Positions 33,873 to 43,195 of a DNA stretch of 64,000 nucleotides are shown piece by piece. Position 1 is the first letter of the stretch. Each line of letters opens with the position of its first letter. Source of the stretch: Carnobacterium pleistocenium FTR1 (GTDB lineage Bacteria; Bacillota; Bacilli; Lactobacillales; Carnobacteriaceae). The notes beneath the pieces are model-generated. The model saw only the letters and a program-made list of their open reading frames with translations. It did not search any database and was not told the origin of the DNA. The stretch is from positions 62,001 to 126,000 of the forward strand of contig NZ_JQLQ01000002.1 of the NCBI RefSeq assembly GCF_000744285.1. The letters run 5' to 3'. The position numbers and the translations under genes are program-made.

Positions 33873-34137
33873 AAGTTAATAAAAGTACCAATATATTTAA
33901 AGGTAATGTATTTTCGTTATTTTTTAATCGTAAGCACTCAGCATTGCTATTGAAGGCTGTGATGAGTCAGAGCGTTCGATTGTTGTAACTTTGACCATTA
34001 ATGAACGAACAAGACAAGCAGTCTTTAAAGCACTGAGAAAAGCTTATATCACAAGATATTTTCTATTGATTATAGGGCATTATATTTGTTTTACACCGTC
34101 TTCTAATTGAAAAATACCTCTTTCGCATATAGTACGG

Positions 34138-34390
34138 AAATATCATTGAAGACCGTACTTACGGTTCTTTGGCTATTCGTACAAATGTGAGGGAATACGA
34201 TGCGACCTACACCATTTCACCAAATAAGAATATGAAAGAACCTTGGAATATCGACTGGAGATTGTACAAGGAACAACATTTGGTGGAGTGTTTTTCAATA
34301 AATAAAAAATCTTTCGTCATATTTGCCACTCGTTAAGATAAACTTGCAACGTCGCACTTAGCTTTTGTTTATATAATAGCTATTTTTACT
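34138..34390 (+). pseudogene. IS5-family transposase C-terminal remnant
   Basis: Reads EDRTYGSLAIR, ATYTISPNKNMKEPWNIDW and LYKEQHLVECF, matching the C-terminal part of IS5-group transposases (..KEPWDvDW.lYKERHLVECFFNKLK..). After ECF the frame shifts and continues as ..FRHICHSLR.. in another frame. Inactive. The 33,873-34,137 stretch in front of it holds no other recognisable gene. Confidence 0.75.
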
Positions 34391-34584
34391 TTAAGGAAAT
34401 GTTTTTTAAACTACCTCTAGTTGGATTATTAAAAATAGTCTTTCTAAAAATAGAAGTATAAACACAAAAAAAGCAATTTGATTGAATGAAATTGTATTTT
34501 TATAAAAAATTAATTCCTTTTTGTTTACAAATCATTTTTTATATGATAAATTAAATAACAATTAGAAAATGAATAGAAATACAT

Positions 34585-34855
34585 AAGCTTTGAAAAGAAA
34601 GAGTAAGTACAGGATGTTATTAGAGAGTGTGCGGTTGGTGAGAGCACATAAACAAAATGTATTGAACACATCTTTGAGCTAATCGGTGAAACCATTCTTG
34701 GGAATAGCTGGATTCGGGAATCGCACCCGTTACAGTGCAAAAGTATGATAGTACTTTCTGAGATTGATGCTGTGAAGTATCAATAAATTGAGGTGGAACC
34801 ACGTGAGAAAACTCCCGTCCTCTAGCATTATTGCTAGAGGACGGGAGTTTTTTTG
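34585..34855 (+). promoter_or_regulatory. T-box leader with a histidine (CAC) specifier
   Basis: Stem I can be drawn with lower arms AAAGA / TCTTT, the S-turn pair AGTA (34602) and GAA (34664-34666), then specifier CAC (34667-34669) followed by A, and upper stem AGTACA / TGTATT. The T-box GAGGTGGAACCACG is at 34790-34803 and the terminator ACTCCCGTCCTCTAGC / GCTAGAGGACGGGAGT at 34811-34848 with seven T. Uncharged tRNA-His should prevent termination. No intact co-oriented gene follows until hisZ at 36251; hisK in between is on the other strand. Confidence 0.88.
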
Positions 34856-34906
34856 TTTTCTATTGAAGTTTTGTAAGATAAATTAGTTCTATTACTTTTT
34901 AATATT

Positions 34907-35217
34907 GATAAATCAGTTGGATCACTTACCTGAAATTACTGGAGGAATAGGGTTGCTTGTAGCCGTGTATTGGATTCAATGAGAATTATAAAACGTTAAC
35001 GCTTCAGCGATTACGATTTGTTTGAAGCTTGAAAGCTTGAAGACTTCTTTTTAGGCTTCAAGTGTTCCCATGGCTTCACGAGCAAACCCGTCCATTCCAG
35101 AAGAAATTTCTTTTAAAACACCACTACCATTTTTAAGCAATCGATATGAGGCTATGATCTTTAGCGTTGATAGATTTTATTTTGAAGCATCCAAATCTTT
35201 TGACCTAGAGCCAATAA
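34907..35217. repeat. MITE-like palindromic repeat, copy A (longest)
   Basis: Left end GAAATTACTGGAGGAATAGG (34932) and right end CCATTCCAGAAGAAATTTC (to 35110) are imperfect inverted repeats of about 35 bases. Shared outer sequence extends to TTTGACCTAGAGCCAATA (35199-35217). Related copies are at 49127-49226 (left half) and 53741-53873 (short form). It lies directly after the T-box terminator. Confidence 0.7.
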
Positions 35218-35259
35218 ATTGTGGATTTGGAATTTTGAAAAATAAAGGAGGCATACAAA

Positions 35260-35320
35260 ATGAAGAAAAAATCAATGAGTTTCTGGATAGTTGCAACAGA
35301 AACTCACTTCTCTCGAACCT
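35260..35320 (+). pseudogene. 5' fragment of a permease-like gene
   Basis: AAATAAAGGAGGCATACAAA precedes an ATG whose product begins MKKKSMSFWIVATETHFSRT. This is the usual start of ABC-2 permeases of the YhaP/NatB kind (..FWIVA.E.Y..). The homology stops after about 20 codons, where the sequence runs into the 3' end of hisK; the longer open frame is antisense to hisK. Possibly the gene once controlled by the T-box. Confidence 0.45.
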
Positions 35321-36103
35321 TTAAAATTCTTCAAGGGATGAAAAGTAACGTCCGATGTCTTTTGCTTGATGAGCATCAGAACCTGTTTCATAATGCAGTC
35401 CAATTTTTTTGGCATATGTCATCATGTCGGCGTCTGGATAAGTCTTCTGATAAAGGGGCTTGTCCATCCCGGCAAAGTTATAGTCTAATCGGTAATGGTT
35501 CATGTTAGCTAAATCCATTAAGGCTTCCCATTGGATAGGATCTTCAACGCTATACGCTTTCTGGAATTTATGAATCAAGTTTAGATGGCCAATCTTTTTA
35601 GGTGTCCATTCGCCAAAAGGAAGAGACAGTGCCTTGGTGAGCGTTTCTTCATAACGACGGTACATTGTTTCAAAATCGATAGATGTTCCCATTTGGACAA
35701 AAGAATCACTGTCATAGTCGATGCAGAAATAGTCATTGGGTCTCAATTGAAGAAAGTGAACACTCAGTATGGAATGGTCAATGCATTCTGGATACTTCTT
35801 CAAAAACTCGATTGTCTCTTTTTCATGACCTTCAATATAGTCTACTTCGAATCCAATATGGATACGGATCCTTTCCGCATACTTGTGTTGCAAGTCTTTC
35901 AAAGTACTGATATAGCGTTCCACATCTTCCATTCTCATAGCGCTGTCCTTTTTAGGAACAGGGTCTTTGATTGGCAAAGGAGCGTGTTCGGTAAAGGTCA
36001 ATTCTTTTAATCCTTTTACTAGCGCTTCTTCGATATACATTTCTATCGAATCAGACGAAGCATGTGGACAATAATTTGTATGGATATGAGTGTCTCTTTT
36101 CAT
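35321..36103 (-). CDS. hisK: histidinol-phosphatase, PHP family
   Basis: 260 aa. Hydrolyses histidinol phosphate to histidinol, the penultimate step group of histidine synthesis. The PHP metal motifs are DTHIHTNYCPHAS (N-terminus), GFEVDYIEG, SVHFL and the C-terminal TGSDAHQAKDIG. I start it at the ATG at 36103, preceded by AAAAAAGGAGAAAAAA; the longer frame reaching 36274 overlaps hisZ and is not supported. It supplies the phosphatase activity absent from the neighbouring operon. Divergent from hisZ with a 147-base shared promoter region. Confidence 0.92.
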   Translation of the reverse strand: MKRDTHIHTNYCPHASSDSIEMYIEEALVKGLKELTFTEHAPLPIKDPVPKKDSAMRMEDVERYISTLKDLQHKYAERIRIHIGFEVDYIEGHEKETIEFLKKYPECIDHSILSVHFLQLRPNDYFCIDYDSDSFVQMGTSIDFETMYRRYEETLTKALSLPFGEWTPKKIGHLNLIHKFQKAYSVEDPIQWEALMDLANMNHYRLDYNFAGMDKPLYQKTYPDADMMTYAKKIGLHYETGSDAHQAKDIGRYFSSLEEF

Positions 36104-36250
36104 TTTTTTCTCCTTTTTTAAAAAGTAAATTAAAAAATTTAGGCTATTCCTATCTTTATAGTAACATGCCTTTAAAATTGGATGAAATAGTTTCTTATTT
36201 AGAGAAGAGAATAGGTAAAACCAATTAAACAAACTAGGAGTGAGACAACA

Positions 36251-37081
36251 ATGAATCAAATTCGAATGAACCAAGATTTAATGAAAATAAAGCAGAAAGA
36301 GATGGAATTTCTGAATCATTTTCAGCAACGTAGCTATGAGTTGATTGATTTAGGAATGGTAGAATCTTTTCAATGGAAAGACTTGTCTCAGGACGATTTA
36401 CATTTGATGGAACGTCGGCATAAATGGGAAAGAAACGGGACCTTGTTTGCTTTACGTAGCGATTGGACGAATGCCATTGTGCGCTACCGTAAGAAGTACC
36501 AGCTGCATGCTGATAAAATTGCTTATGTTGGATCGGTTTATACCGTTGATAGTGAAAGCAAGCAAATGGGAGTCGAAATTTTCTCAGCGGATGTGAAGCA
36601 GCAGTTTAAGGTCTTGGAAGATATGATTTCTTTCTTACAACAGGAGCTGCATACGACACTTTCAGTAGGCGTCATCAGTCATAATATGTTGTTAAAGAAA
36701 CTGTTAACCAAAGAGGAACAGGAGGATGACTTGGTTCAGCAATACATTAAGGACAGAAACTATGATGCATTGGGTTCCCGTTTAGGAAAAGAGCATCTGT
36801 TAGTTAGAGTGATGAAAGAAGCCCCTGCTGATCAAGCGGACTATTTGAAAAAACACTTTCCTGAATTAGCAGATCAATTAAAGGAAATTGAGCAGTGGCA
36901 AGATCGACTAGATGCATTGGGAGTTGAGTATGTTTATGCTGATTTATTAGCCGTCCCTATGCAATCGTATTACAAAGGAATTTTCATTCACGTTTATGAA
37001 AAAAATACAGTGAATCCCATTGTATCTGGCGGACAATATACAAGTTCTTCAAAAGCTTTCGGAATGGCAATAACAATATAA
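36251..37081 (+). CDS. hisZ: ATP phosphoribosyltransferase regulatory subunit
   Basis: 276 aa catalytically inactive relative of histidyl-tRNA synthetase that completes the short-form ATP phosphoribosyltransferase. It keeps the class II fold elements (LFALRSDWTNAIVRYRKKYQ; SGGQYTSSSKAFGMAITI) and lacks the anticodon-binding domain. AGGAGTGAGACAACA precedes the ATG. First gene of the his operon. Its presence explains why hisG next door is short. Confidence 0.9.
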   Translation: MNQIRMNQDLMKIKQKEMEFLNHFQQRSYELIDLGMVESFQWKDLSQDDLHLMERRHKWERNGTLFALRSDWTNAIVRYRKKYQLHADKIAYVGSVYTVDSESKQMGVEIFSADVKQQFKVLEDMISFLQQELHTTLSVGVISHNMLLKKLLTKEEQEDDLVQQYIKDRNYDALGSRLGKEHLLVRVMKEAPADQADYLKKHFPELADQLKEIEQWQDRLDALGVEYVYADLLAVPMQSYYKGIFIHVYEKNTVNPIVSGGQYTSSSKAFGMAITI

Positions 37082-37093
37082 GGGAGTGTCAGT

Positions 37094-37696
37094 ATGATAA
37101 CAATTGCTTTATCAAAAGGAAGACAACTGAAAGATTTCATCGATTACCTTGATTCCATTCAATTGACTGAATGGTCAACGGCATTGAAATCAGTATCAAG
37201 GGAGCTAGTCGTCCTTATAGAAGATATTCGATTTTTACTTGTTAAAGGAGAAGACGTTCCGGTCTATGTGGAAGAGGGGATAGCCGATTTAGGAATAACT
37301 GGGAGCGATGTCTTGTTTGAACAAAATCGAACGCTGAATAACCTAATGAACTTACCCTTTGGTTATTGTCATTTTGCTTTGGCCAGTAAGCAACCTCAAA
37401 AAGAGTACCCAATTGTGGCAACTAAATATGTACACTACACCCAGCGTTATTTTAATACCATCATGCAACCGGTCAAAATTATTGCCTTGAAAGGTTCGGT
37501 TGAATTGGCTGCAACAATCGACATGGCGGATGCCATCATGGATATTGTTCAATCCGGGACCACTTTACGTGAAAACGGGTTGAGCGAACAAGTAAGACTA
37601 GACGAGATCAACGCGCGCCTCATTTCCAATAAACATGCTTATTTTTCAAAGTATGAAGAAATTCAAAAAATTATCAATGTATTGAAGGTGAATTGA
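37094..37696 (+). CDS. hisG: ATP phosphoribosyltransferase, short form
   Basis: 200 aa. Joins ATP and PRPP, the first committed step of histidine synthesis. N-terminal ITIALSKGR, DLGITGSDVLFE, and the PRPP loop DAIMDIVQSGTTLRENGL. It lacks the C-terminal ACT-like regulatory domain of long HisG, so it needs HisZ. GGGAGTGTCAGT precedes the ATG. The stop overlaps the hisD start by one base. Confidence 0.95.
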   Translation: MITIALSKGRQLKDFIDYLDSIQLTEWSTALKSVSRELVVLIEDIRFLLVKGEDVPVYVEEGIADLGITGSDVLFEQNRTLNNLMNLPFGYCHFALASKQPQKEYPIVATKYVHYTQRYFNTIMQPVKIIALKGSVELAATIDMADAIMDIVQSGTTLRENGLSEQVRLDEINARLISNKHAYFSKYEEIQKIINVLKVN

Positions 37697-38955
37697 TGTA
37701 TACAGCAGAAGAATTTAAAAAACAGTATAAGTCTGCAAATCAGACCGATCTTTCCAAGGCCAAATCAGTAATGGATATCATCCAAACAGTTCAAGAAAGA
37801 GGAGATGATGCCCTGATTAATTATGCGAGACAATTTGATGGAGTGGAATTGGATGCGGATCAGTTGGAAGTTCCAATAGCGGAAATGAAGAAAGCCTACG
37901 ATGAATTGGACAGCGAACTGCGCGATGCATTGGAAGAAGCGTATAAAAACATTTATAAGTATCAAACGTCCATTAAATGGTCCACCATGCCGAAGTCAGA
38001 ACTTTATCAAAATATTCAGCCTTTAAATCGAATAGGGATTTATGTGCCTGGTGGAAAAGCAAGTTATCCGTCAACGGTCTTGATGACAGCCACTTTAGCC
38101 AATGTAGCTGGAGTAAAAGAAACCATCATTGTCACTCCTCCTCAACCGGGCGGAATCAATCAGACCACATTAGCCGCCTGCTTTATTGCTCAAGTCGATC
38201 ACGTCTATCAATCAGGCGGAGCACAAGGCATAGCCGCAATGGCTTATGGAACAGAAACGATTCCAAAGGTTGATAAGATAGTAGGACCTGGAAACCAGTA
38301 CGTGGCATTGGCAAAGAAACTGGTCTATGGGGATGTTGGAATTGATTCTATTGCCGGACCTTCCGAAATAGTTTTGGTGGTGGATGAGACGGCCAACGCA
38401 GAATGGGTAGCCTTAGATGTGTTGGCTCAAGCTGAACACGATGAGATGGCTCGTACCTTTTTAATCAGCTCCAATAAAGAAATGTTGGCTGCTGTTGAAG
38501 CAGAAATCGACAAGCAAAAAATGAAGCAAAGCCGGTTAAGTGTGATCAACGGAAGCTTGAAAGACCATCATTATCCAATTTTGACTAGTAGCCAAGGAGA
38601 AACCATTGAAATCGTGAATTTGATTGCTGGAGAGCATGTATCCATCCAGACAGAGAATGCTGAAGAGTACATTCCTGAAATAAAAACAGCAGGAGCTCTT
38701 TTCATTGGCCCCTATTCTCCAGAAGCAATCGGGGACTACGTGGCAGGTCCAAGTCATGTTCTGCCAACCAATGGGAATGCGCGATTTGCCAATGGATTGA
38801 CGGTAAACGACTTTCTGCGAACCAATTCTGTGATCCAGTTGAAAAAAGAAACGTTCCAACAAATGGCCCCTTTCGGCATGCGCATTGCAAAAGAAGAAGC
38901 ATTACAAGCACACCATGATTCTCTTGCTGTTAGGTTGAAGGAGGAAGAAAAATGA
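37696..38955 (+). CDS. hisD: histidinol dehydrogenase
   Basis: 419 aa NAD-dependent enzyme oxidising histidinol to histidine in two steps. Signature PKVDKIVGPGNQYVALAKKLVYGDVGIDSIAGPSE and zinc/catalytic residues in LAQAEHDEMAR and AGPSHVLPT. GAAGGTGAATT precedes the ATG; an in-frame TTG one codon upstream is less likely. The stop and hisC start overlap (ATGA). Confidence 0.96.
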   Translation: MYTAEEFKKQYKSANQTDLSKAKSVMDIIQTVQERGDDALINYARQFDGVELDADQLEVPIAEMKKAYDELDSELRDALEEAYKNIYKYQTSIKWSTMPKSELYQNIQPLNRIGIYVPGGKASYPSTVLMTATLANVAGVKETIIVTPPQPGGINQTTLAACFIAQVDHVYQSGGAQGIAAMAYGTETIPKVDKIVGPGNQYVALAKKLVYGDVGIDSIAGPSEIVLVVDETANAEWVALDVLAQAEHDEMARTFLISSNKEMLAAVEAEIDKQKMKQSRLSVINGSLKDHHYPILTSSQGETIEIVNLIAGEHVSIQTENAEEYIPEIKTAGALFIGPYSPEAIGDYVAGPSHVLPTNGNARFANGLTVNDFLRTNSVIQLKKETFQQMAPFGMRIAKEEALQAHHDSLAVRLKEEEK

Positions 38956-39950
38956 TTCGTATCCACAAAAATGAAAGCCCGTATCGTTCATTGACCGATG
39001 AAGAATTGCAAGAAATTGTATTAAAAACGCCTTTCAATCAATATGGAGATGATGAGTACAAACAGCTGGCGAAAGTGTACGGAGCATTCAATGGACTGGA
39101 CCCTGAATTGGTCAGTTTTGCCAACGGTTCAGATGAATGGATCCAAAAATGCATGATGGTTTTAGGAACGGGTCCGGTAATGACTTTTGAGCCAGATTTT
39201 TCAATGTATGAAGAATACGCCAATCAATTGAAGCGTCCTATATTTAAAGTGAAGTGTAACGAGGATGGAGCCTTTGATTATGCCAGTACACTTGTCCAGA
39301 TAGAAACCATTAAACCCTCATTCTTCATCTTTTCTCAGCCGAACAATCCGCTTGGGATGCTTCATCCAGAAGGATTTGTCCAAGCTGCGGCCGATTTGAT
39401 GCAAGAACTGAATGGGTATTTGATCATCGATGAAGCGTATATGGACTTCGCGGAGCAAAAAGCTATTCGTCCAGCAGGGGAACACGTTATTATTCTGCAG
39501 ACACTTTCTAAAATATATGGTTTGGCAGGCTTACGTATCGGAATAGTGACCAGTAGTGCAGCAACGATGGCTTTGTTGAATTCAATCGCTCATCCTTATC
39601 CAATAAATACGTTATCGATTAATATAGCTGCATCTTTATTCGGAAATCCAACGAAGCTGGCAACCTTTATGCATCAGCAAAGAAAGTTAGCTGAGAAATT
39701 AAAAGACATTTTTAAGAAAGAAGTCAGTGATGTGATGACTGTCTTGCCAAGTCAAGCGAACTTCGTTTTTACTTACGGTGAAGGTGCTTTGGCATTAGGG
39801 AAGTACATCCAACAAAGGGGCTTTCAGCCAAGAACGTACCCTGATTCGTCCCATCCCTTACTGCAAAAAGCGGTCCGTTATTCAATAGCGACAGATGAAC
39901 AATTAACGCAACTAGAATCAATTGTAAAAGAATGGAGAGGAAGACAATGA
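38952..39950 (+). CDS. hisC: histidinol-phosphate aminotransferase
   Basis: 332 aa PLP enzyme of fold type I, converting imidazole-acetol phosphate to histidinol phosphate with glutamate. It has the SQPNNPLG loop, IIDEAYMDF, and the PLP lysine in LQTLSKIYGLAGLRIG. It is a little shorter than the usual 350-360 aa, mainly at the N-terminus. Overlaps hisD and hisB by 4 bases each. Confidence 0.93.
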   Translation: MIRIHKNESPYRSLTDEELQEIVLKTPFNQYGDDEYKQLAKVYGAFNGLDPELVSFANGSDEWIQKCMMVLGTGPVMTFEPDFSMYEEYANQLKRPIFKVKCNEDGAFDYASTLVQIETIKPSFFIFSQPNNPLGMLHPEGFVQAAADLMQELNGYLIIDEAYMDFAEQKAIRPAGEHVIILQTLSKIYGLAGLRIGIVTSSAATMALLNSIAHPYPINTLSINIAASLFGNPTKLATFMHQQRKLAEKLKDIFKKEVSDVMTVLPSQANFVFTYGEGALALGKYIQQRGFQPRTYPDSSHPLLQKAVRYSIATDEQLTQLESIVKEWRGRQ

Positions 39951-40525
39951 CCGTATCGATCGAACGCATTACCAAAGAAACGAAAATTCGCATGTCCTTG
40001 AAACAAGGTTTTGAACCGTCTAGCATTGAAACAGGGGTTGGTTTTTTGAACCATATGCTCAATCTATTTGCTTTTCATGGCCATTTTGTCCTAGATCTGA
40101 TAGTTGAGGGTGATACAGATGTGGATGCTCATCATACGACTGAAGATGTTGGCATCGTATTGGGCCAATTGTTGGCTGAATTAAGTAAAGAAAAAGGAAG
40201 CATAACCCGCTACGGTACAGCCTATGTACCGATGGACGAAACATTGGCTCGCTCAGTAACGGATATTAGCGGACGCCCTTATTTGCACTTGGATGCAACG
40301 TTCTCAAAAGCGACTGTTGGAACGTTTGATGTGGAACTGGTTAGAGAGTTTTTCTATGCGGTCGTCATTCATGCCCGTTACACGACCCATCTAGATTTAA
40401 TCAGGGGAGGAAATACGCACCATGAGATTGAGGCTTTATTCAAAGCATTTGCTCAAAGTGTTCGAATAGCGCTGAGTGATTCAGGTGTCAACCGTCTGCC
40501 TTCTTCCAAAGGAGTGATTGAATGA
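39947..40525 (+). CDS. hisB: imidazoleglycerol-phosphate dehydratase
   Basis: 192 aa monofunctional enzyme (no phosphatase domain; HisK does that step). Metal-binding motifs GFLNHMLNLFAFHG, DAHHTTEDVG and the second set HARYTTH and NTHHEIEALFKAF. The start at 39947 follows GAGAGGAAGACA; the longer frame from 39932 is within hisC. Overlaps hisH by 4 bases. Confidence 0.96.
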   Translation: MTVSIERITKETKIRMSLKQGFEPSSIETGVGFLNHMLNLFAFHGHFVLDLIVEGDTDVDAHHTTEDVGIVLGQLLAELSKEKGSITRYGTAYVPMDETLARSVTDISGRPYLHLDATFSKATVGTFDVELVREFFYAVVIHARYTTHLDLIRGGNTHHEIEALFKAFAQSVRIALSDSGVNRLPSSKGVIE

Positions 40526-41097
40526 TCGCGATTATGGATTATGGTTTGGGAAACATTGCCAATTTGACTAATGCCATCCGGTTTCTGGGCTATGAGGTAG
40601 AAGTAACCAAAGACGAAGAGGCCCTTCGACAAGCAGATACTATTATCCTGCCAGGTGTCGGACATTTCAAAGATGCCATGGAACGAATTCAGGCACAAGA
40701 CCTGGTTCCTTTATTGAATGAGTTGAAAGAAACCAAACTAGTGGTGGGGATTTGCCTGGGCATGCAGTTATTGTTTGAGCACAGTGAAGAAGGGGATGTC
40801 GACGGTCTTGGCTATTTGCCTGGTACAGTTGAAAAAATCATTAGCTCGCACCCTGTACCGCATCTAGGATGGAATGCGTTGCACTCAACTCTTCCAAGTT
40901 TGAATGGAGATGTGTATTTCATTCATTCTTATAAAGCAGTCACCAACGAAAACATTGTCGCTACAGCTGATTATGGGCAAGATGTGGTAGCAATTGTGCA
41001 AAAAAAGAACATTTTAGGTATTCAATTCCATCCTGAAAAAAGCGGAGAAATAGGATTGGCAATTTTAAATCAAGCACTCCAAGGAGGATTTAAATGA
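40522..41097 (+). CDS. hisH: imidazole glycerol phosphate synthase, glutaminase subunit
   Basis: 191 aa class I glutamine amidotransferase that supplies ammonia to HisF. LPGVGHF oxyanion strand, nucleophile Cys in VGICLGMQLLFE, and the His-Glu pair in GIQFHPEKS. Overlaps both neighbours (ATGA at each junction), consistent with a fixed HisH:HisF complex. Confidence 0.96.
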   Translation: MIAIMDYGLGNIANLTNAIRFLGYEVEVTKDEEALRQADTIILPGVGHFKDAMERIQAQDLVPLLNELKETKLVVGICLGMQLLFEHSEEGDVDGLGYLPGTVEKIISSHPVPHLGWNALHSTLPSLNGDVYFIHSYKAVTNENIVATADYGQDVVAIVQKKNILGIQFHPEKSGEIGLAILNQALQGGFK

Positions 41098-41804
41098 TTG
41101 AGATATGGCCAGCAATCGATTTGATCGACAATAAAAGTGTCCGCCTGACAGAAGGGGATTACGCAACCAAAGAAGAAATGAAGCGCACACCTGAAGAAGC
41201 GATTGCTTTTTATACTCGCTACCCGCAAGTCACACGTATTCATATTGTTGATTTGATGGGAGCAATCGAGAAAAAGCCAACTTCTAGCGCTTATATCGAA
41301 ACACTCTTGAAAAAAAGTACCGTTCCGATTGAAATCGGTGGGGGAATCCGTTCTGAAAAGACGATCCAGCATTACCTTGAAGCAGGAGCTTCTTATGTCA
41401 TTGTTGGAACCAAGGGTCTTCAGGATCGAGAATGGCTCGCTGAAATGACCACACGCTATCCTGGAAAGATTTACTTGGGACTTGATGCGAAAGACGAGAA
41501 AGTCGCATTGAATGGCTGGACAGAAGTCAGTGAACAGACCATTTACGAGGTAGCCGAAGCGGTAAACGAGTTGCCTTTAGGCGGGATCATTTACACAGAT
41601 ATTACAAAAGATGGAAAAATGGGGGGTCCAAATGTGGAAGTGACCGGTGCATTAGCCAGGTTATCCAAACACCCTATCACGGCTTCAGGCGGCATACGCA
41701 GTTTCGAAGACATTCAAAAATTAGAGAAAGCTGGCGTTACTGCAGCGATTGTTGGGAAAGCAGCCAACACACATGCTTTCTGGGAGGGACTAGACAATGA
41801 TTAA
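41094..41804 (+). CDS. hisA: ProFAR isomerase
   Basis: 236 aa TIM barrel. The catalytic Asp residues are in PAIDLIDNKSVRL and YTDITKDGKMGGPN, with phosphate loops EIGGGIRS and ASGGIRSFED. Acts between HisI/E and HisFH. Overlaps hisF by 8 bases. Confidence 0.96.
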   Translation: MIEIWPAIDLIDNKSVRLTEGDYATKEEMKRTPEEAIAFYTRYPQVTRIHIVDLMGAIEKKPTSSAYIETLLKKSTVPIEIGGGIRSEKTIQHYLEAGASYVIVGTKGLQDREWLAEMTTRYPGKIYLGLDAKDEKVALNGWTEVSEQTIYEVAEAVNELPLGGIIYTDITKDGKMGGPNVEVTGALARLSKHPITASGGIRSFEDIQKLEKAGVTAAIVGKAANTHAFWEGLDND

Positions 41805-42561
41805 AAAACGGATCATTCCCTGCTTGGATGTTAAAGACGGCCAAGTGGTCAAGGGCATTCAATTTAAACAATTAAGAATAATTGGCGATCCGGTTAAGAT
41901 GGCGAAACAATACAATGCTCTCGGAGCGGATGAACTGGTTTTTTTAGATATTTCTGCAACAGAAACCGGACATGCACTCATGCTTGATGTCATCCGCAAG
42001 ACAGCTAAGGAATTGTTTATTCCTTTAACTATCGGAGGGGGCATTAAAAATCTGGCAGACATCTCCCAACTACTCAATGCAGGAGCGGATAAAGTCAGCT
42101 TGAATTCTGCTGCACTGGCAAATCCTGCGTTCATTAAAGAGGCTAGTGAGAAGTTTGGCTCGCAATGCATCTGTATCGCGATTGATGCACAATGGGAACC
42201 CGAAGAAGAGGACTGGTTCTGCTATACTCATGGTGGGAAAAAGCGAACAGCTAAGCGAACGCTCGAGTGGGTAAAAGAAGTTGAGGCATTAGGTGCTGGA
42301 GAATTATTGGTCACCAGTATGGATTATGATGGAATGAAACAAGGGTTTGATCATCGGTTATTAAAGCTAATTGAACAAGCGGTTCATATTCCGGTCATTG
42401 CTTCTGGAGGTGGCGGGAACGCCCGACACTTTGCAGACTTATTTAAGGAGACCAATGTATCTGCCGGATTGGCCGCTTCTATTTTCCATGATGAAGAAAT
42501 CTTGATTGCTGAAGTAAAAGATAGCTGTTCTACGAAAGGAGTACCGATGCGTTATGTCTAA
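41797..42561 (+). CDS. hisF: imidazole glycerol phosphate synthase, cyclase subunit
   Basis: 254 aa TIM barrel related to HisA. It begins MIKKRIIPCLDVKDGQVVKGIQF, with TIGGGIKNL, AIDAQWE, LVTSMDYDGMKQGFD and IASGGGGNARHF. Makes imidazole glycerol phosphate and the purine precursor AICAR, which links this operon to the pur genes further along. Overlaps hisI by 8 bases. Confidence 0.97.
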   Translation: MIKKRIIPCLDVKDGQVVKGIQFKQLRIIGDPVKMAKQYNALGADELVFLDISATETGHALMLDVIRKTAKELFIPLTIGGGIKNLADISQLLNAGADKVSLNSAALANPAFIKEASEKFGSQCICIAIDAQWEPEEEDWFCYTHGGKKRTAKRTLEWVKEVEALGAGELLVTSMDYDGMKQGFDHRLLKLIEQAVHIPVIASGGGGNARHFADLFKETNVSAGLAASIFHDEEILIAEVKDSCSTKGVPMRYV

Positions 42562-43195
42562 TTATGATGATTTGAAGCCTGATTTTTCCAAAGGGTTGTT
42601 GACGGTTATTTTGCAACACTTCACGAATAAAAACGTACTAATGGTTGGGTACATGAATGAAGAGGCTTTTGAAAGTACAAAAAAAGAAGAAGTGGTTTGG
42701 TTTTATTCCAGAAGCAAAGAAAGGTTATGGAAAAAAGGCGAAAGCAGTCAGAATGTCCAATATGTAAAAGAAATGTATTTGGACTGCGATCAAGATGCGT
42801 TGCTCATATTGGTAAACCCAGCAGGCCCAACGTGTCACCGAAATACGGAAAGCTGTTTTGATGTCGCTCCAGCATTTACGCTGAAAGATATCGAGCAAAC
42901 GATTCAAGATCGGGTAAAGGAAAAAGTAGGGGATTCCTATACAAATTACCTGTTAACAGAAGGAACCGATAAAATAGCCAAAAAATTTGGTGAAGAAGCA
43001 GTTGAAGTCATCATTGCCGCAAAAAATGCAGACAAAAAAGAGACTGCCAATGAAACAGCTGACTTGCTCTACCACCTTGGAGTATTGCTGCATGATCAAG
43101 GCGTTGCCGTTGATGATGTTGCTGCAGTGTTGGCTGAACGTCATCAAAAGAATAACAATTTCAAAGGTGAACGAAAAAGTATAGATGTCTGGTAG
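42554..43195 (+). CDS. hisIE: bifunctional phosphoribosyl-AMP cyclohydrolase / phosphoribosyl-ATP pyrophosphatase
   Basis: 213 aa fusion. Residues about 1-110 are the HisI cyclohydrolase (VGYMNEEAFE, FYSRSKERLWKKGESS, zinc ligands in LDCDQDALL and GPTCHRNTESCF). Residues about 115-213 are HisE (LLTEGTDKIAKKFGEEAVEVIIAAKN, ADLLYHLGVLL). It performs steps 2 and 3 of the pathway and completes the set in this operon. A terminator follows. Confidence 0.95.
   Translation: MSNYDDLKPDFSKGLLTVILQHFTNKNVLMVGYMNEEAFESTKKEEVVWFYSRSKERLWKKGESSQNVQYVKEMYLDCDQDALLILVNPAGPTCHRNTESCFDVAPAFTLKDIEQTIQDRVKEKVGDSYTNYLLTEGTDKIAKKFGEEAVEVIIAAKNADKKETANETADLLYHLGVLLHDQGVAVDDVAAVLAERHQKNNNFKGERKSIDVW

Follow-up and report, generated by a model that had tools for sequence, protein, structure and literature searches.

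Histidine T-boxes situated ahead of his operons or of hisYZX transporters are well known in the Lactobacillales (PMC9413887). Noncontiguous operons have also been described, for example for the men genes of S. aureus (reviewed in PMC7154746), as have riboswitches which act in antisense, including the ubiG-mccBA S-box and rli39/aspocR (PMC9943018, PMC7154746), and antisense-acting SAM and B12 riboswitches from C. acetobutylicum and L. monocytogenes, respectively (PMC9943018). A survey of antisense-acting riboswitches found 107 of 15,851 T-boxes in antisense orientation, which is not an enrichment, and explained a transposase group by insertion ahead of an older target (PMC9943018). The locus described here, in Carnobacterium pleistocenium FTR1 (G000), lies within a 64,000-nucleotide stretch of DNA (hereafter the window, from whose first letter all positions are counted) and combines elements of each of these systems. 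The best single reading, which we hold at a little under an even chance, is that an orphaned histidine T-box is being co-opted to drive hisZGDCBHAFIE by transcription passing through hisK in antisense.

The T-box leader is located at 34581–34825 on the plus strand and spans the whole of the RF00230 covariance model (125.8 bits, E 1.7e-27, model 1–219 of 219), with a fold stability of z −6.8 relative to shuffled sequences. Near-equal RF00230 scores were obtained for the corresponding leaders of a second genome of the same genus (G001; 126.7 bits) and of a genome from another genus of the same family (G007; 125.0 bits). The specifier codon, CAC (His), occupies the Stem I loop at 34667–34669; its register, calibrated on those T-boxes of G000 whose downstream genes reveal the amino acid, is the same as in the leaders of tyrS (UAC), pheS (UUC), glyQ (GGC) and thrS (ACC), and the codon is identical in G001, G007 and a further genome, G014. 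The T-box motif, GGUGGAACCACG, is at 34792–34803 and is accompanied by both an antiterminator half and a competing terminator, as is characteristic of the class. The model score and the register check bear out the first-pass annotation, which had proposed a complete T-box with a CAC specifier in the right place. The very strong intrinsic terminator (34807–34853, plus strand; −40.9 kcal/mol, 23 pairs, T7 tail) is present in G001 and G007, and deleted in G014. A promoter region matching the consensus (TTTACA-17-TAAATT; 34519–34560, plus strand) precedes the leader and, like it, diverges slowly. The region upstream of the T-box (33920–34340) is non-coding; it includes a 55-residue frame (34169–34336) that reads like the end of an IS5-type transposase, for which a Pfam search gave no matches.

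Directly downstream of the T-box there is no live co-oriented histidine gene, only the truncated remnant of the former target (35260–35320, plus strand), which a deletion has fused with the 3′ flank of hisK. The fragment at 35260 had been annotated from the sequence as the start of a permease; the better-preserved homologues of the remnant in G001 and G007 rule this out, since they read as a binding protein (MKKKLISFWIVAALMAVLMGVTVCGTS*DSS...RLEEIQERGKFDVATEPYF) and match PDB 4i62 (E 1.2e-6), such that the fragment corresponds to the first dozen codons of a binding-protein gene. Pfam alone gave no matches to the remnants. The comparison identifies the former target of the T-box as the gene for a solute-binding lipoprotein of an amino-acid ABC transporter, now decayed. 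A close intact orthologue of the lost protein was not found among 395 genomes of the order, the best intact homologue having 44% identity; T-boxes near binding-protein homologues were found at one locus only, where neither leader was judged on reading to carry a CAC specifier. In G007 a second gene remnant (L053, 9400–9640) lies beside that of the binding protein; it resembles the terminal part of a protein from the endonuclease/exonuclease/phosphatase family (PF03372, E 0.006).

The suggestion that the T-box had lost its gene is thus upheld by the truncated remnant and by a deletion junction held in common: both G000 and G001 have the gene truncated at the identical position and fused to the hisK 3′ flank, the roughly 400 bases between the two deletion points being kept in G007 and missing from both. 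Since the junction is shared, loss of the target gene predates the split between G000 and G001. None of the four genomes carrying the orphan T-box retains a live target gene. A TAG stop shared by the remnants was considered as proof of early gene death and rejected, because G014 has CAG where the others have TAG, even though its adjacent T-box sequence places it with G007. Comparison of the G001 and G007 remnants (dN 0.104, dS 0.196 over 53 codons) indicates partial relaxation only, and the dating therefore relies on the deletion common to G000 and G001.

Between the T-box and the former gene lies a copy (34888–35132, plus strand) of an interspersed repeat of approximately 230 bp, which is missing from this site in G007. 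At least 41 copies are present in G000, and many in other genera of the family. Paired changes occur in its hairpin at alignment columns 141/170 (AT 10, CG 5, GC 5, TG 1), and the repeat has the appearance of a family of structured RNAs or MITE-like elements; no Rfam match to it was found in the window, and searches of plasmid and phage collections were negative.

The orphan T-box has changed little in the time over which the surrounding DNA has diverged. In the comparison of G000 with G001, leader and terminator (34561–34855) differ at 7 of 293 sites (2.4%), versus 47 of 368 (12.8%) in the DNA lying 3′, where the alignment was trimmed to the homologous part (Fisher p 3e-7); at the latter rate, 37 changes would be expected in the T-box. 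The 5′ flank differs at 18 of 57 sites from G001 and at 17 of 58 from G007, and the fourfold sites of ten his genes at 219 of 940 (23%; G000 versus G001). Slow change extends to all parts of the switch, antiterminator and terminator among them (2 of 68 sites changed), and to the promoter region (3 of 42 differences from G001 and 1 of 42 from G007). Relative to fourfold sites, the rate of the orphan T-box is 0.10 (G000–G001), 0.18 (G001–G007) and 0.23 (G000–G007); for the working His T-box of G000 it is 0.15 (15 of 290 sites, with 67 of 196 at fourfold sites; G000–G001). By these ratios, the orphan evolves as slowly as its working counterpart. As this slow rate follows a loss older than the G000–G001 split, we infer that the T-box is still selected and that purifying selection has maintained the switch after gene loss, an inference from few genomes, three of which have the arrangement intact and have likely recombined with one another.

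These rates bear on the view that the T-box is a relic which lost its gene, serves nothing now and has not yet decayed. The death of the target gene in every genome with the orphan speaks for this view, as does the presence elsewhere in G000 of a second His T-box (L003; G000:C2:1770819-1771073), with a CAC specifier and a similar leader, by which the function would be covered; 96 nt separate it from an intact binding-protein gene (SBP_bac_3), after which comes a permease-like gene. A relic is nonetheless difficult to reconcile with a substitution rate far below that of flanks and synonymous sites after a loss which predates the G000–G001 split, or with the retention of specifier, antiterminator and terminator in three genomes; we regard it as unlikely, albeit deserving of serious weight.

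The only intact co-oriented genes downstream of the T-box in G000, G001 and G007 are those of the his operon, comprising hisZ (36251–37081, plus strand; NF008947, E 2.3e-65) and hisG-hisD-hisC-hisB-hisH-hisA-hisF-hisIE (37094–43195, plus strand; assigned by NCBIfam matches). As the first-pass annotation had it, hisK lies between T-box and hisZ on the opposite strand; it encodes a histidinol-phosphatase of the PHP type (35321–36103, minus strand; NF005996, TIGR01856, PF02811). HisB is of the short monofunctional IGPD form (197 residues), and hisK is therefore required by the pathway; a HisK scan of the genome contigs returned a single distant locus only. The divergent hisK–hisZ spacer is 147 bp long (36104–36250). 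A promoter-like site facing hisK (TTCATC-17-TGn.TACTAT) is common to G000, G001 and G007, whilst facing hisZ nothing convincing was found in the G000 spacer by a consensus scan (score 4.4, p 0.79), a method in which a low score is no proof of promoter absence; in the hisZ direction, weak candidates are present in G001 and G007. Just 5′ of hisZ, a 20-codon frame (36165–36227; MPLKLDEIVSYLEKRIGKTN) is open in all three genomes; it may be non-coding, its 5′ part overlapping the likely hisK promoter.

The divergent hisK/hisZ layout was found in 18 relatives from two other families, none of which has a T-box closer than 1.5 kb to hisK; five wider stretches contained one T-box only, which faces away from hisZ. 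The first-pass annotation had proposed looking in related genomes for a T-box directly 5′ of hisZ; none was found in any relative examined. Many of the relatives without a T-box (families f4 and f6) have an extended −10 site facing hisZ, beside which several have palindromes. Because relatives have the same layout without a T-box, the link of the T-box to hisK and hisZ would be late and local; judged by this distribution, the layout is the older of the two and the link is not ancestral. In G014 (L054, 4944–8680) the his operon is decaying: hisK, hisZ, hisG and hisD are missing, hisC and hisB are truncated, hisA is frameshifted, and the T-box terminator hairpin is deleted. We take G014 as a natural contrast, with damage to the his operon and loss of the T-box terminator occurring together, and count it in favour of capture by the his operon.

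With the T-box under selection and the his operon its only intact co-oriented downstream genes, the his operon is the best candidate target. Originally the T-box controlled an amino-acid ABC transporter, the binding-protein gene of which later decayed. Our proposal is that promoter and switch, kept by selection, now serve the his operon, this being the most likely reason for their retention. When histidine is short, uncharged tRNA-His would disrupt the terminator at 34807–34853; RNA polymerase would then read through the gene remnant and hisK, the latter in antisense, and a starvation-induced transcript would be added to hisZGDCBHAFIE. A strong plus-strand terminator between 34,860 and 36,250 had been named beforehand as an observation incompatible with such read-through. 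It was looked for and none was found: over 34,856–36,250 on the plus strand there is no hairpin beyond −10.6 kcal/mol, and a simple terminator scan returned one five-pair site. The product of these steps, a T-box-gated noncontiguous operon in the making, in which a captured switch would supply the his operon by read-through crossing hisK, is put forward tentatively, as a possibility somewhat short of even. The first-pass annotation had posed gene loss and action at a distance as alternatives. The sequence suggests that both may hold, with the gene lost first and action at a distance following; gene loss stands, with a binding protein in place of the permease, and the continued selection on the T-box fits action at a distance.

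Several considerations speak against capture by the his operon. A starvation-induced antisense transcript would be apt to reduce the required hisK, which looks costly; the same hisK/hisZ layout functions with no T-box in relatives from other families; and Rho, which often terminates untranslated antisense RNA, is encoded in G000, G001, G007 and G014 and could end the transcript. Termination by Rho inside hisK would be in keeping with a switch for hisK only, whereby an RNA made under histidine starvation lowers hisK and stops short of hisZ. The T-box lies 3′ of hisK and convergent to it, which is the geometry of the antisense-acting riboswitches (PMC9943018). The sign of such regulation would, however, be odd, as a biosynthetic phosphatase would be lowered when histidine is scarce, and T-boxes were not enriched in antisense orientation in the survey cited above (p 1.00; PMC9943018). 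We consider a switch for hisK only improbable.

Less probable again is a role for the leader as a free-standing RNA, by binding tRNA-His or in trans, or for its hairpin as a back-side terminator of hisK. The hairpin is nearly symmetric, with −32 kcal/mol and a TTTT tail on the minus strand in G000; the minus-strand T-run is nonetheless not kept (TTTT in G000, TTT in G001, TTG in G007), and a plain terminator would not need Stem I, specifier and antiterminator, all of which are conserved. Hypomutation or a short recombination tract mimicking conservation without selection is very improbable, for although exchange is evident in the uneven rates along the his genes of G000, G001 and G007, with hisC/hisB of G001 and G007 unusually close, the slow stretch coincides with promoter, T-box and terminator in all three genome pairs and has fast DNA on both sides. 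The low divergence of hisC–hisB relative to neighbouring his genes (L052 and L053; G001 and G007) itself suggests gene exchange between genera.

Capture by the his operon remains our favoured reading, with which continued selection on the T-box is compatible. Should it be correct, and read-through reach hisZ, a tRNA-sensing switch would work across an opposite gene, a relationship missed by searches of adjacent genes. The locus itself is an instance, and one that can be dated, of a regulatory RNA that outlives its gene and stays selected, through which moves of riboswitches between targets become directly testable. In the open-access literature searched, we found no precedent for a T-box selected after gene loss with an opposite gene before an operon of the same pathway.

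When set against known systems, the locus shares with the His T-boxes of the Lactobacillales (PMC9413887) a CAC specifier, predicted antitermination by uncharged tRNA-His, and transporter or his-operon targets; those T-boxes adjoin a live co-oriented gene, as does the L003 T-box of G000, whereas here the adjoining gene has died and the his operon is preceded by one on the opposite strand. Loss of the target at the orphan T-box resembles the displacement of targets in the transposase group (PMC9943018). As in the antisense riboswitches, the switch converges on a same-pathway gene and putatively controls RNA antisense to it; here, however, a T-box takes the place of the riboswitch, and its antisense RNA would extend into an operon of the same pathway. 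The arrangement is that of a noncontiguous operon such as the S. aureus men genes, with an opposite-strand gene, hisK, inside a co-oriented set and any read-through antisense to it, except that the entry point to the predicted transcript across hisK would be a tRNA-sensing switch.
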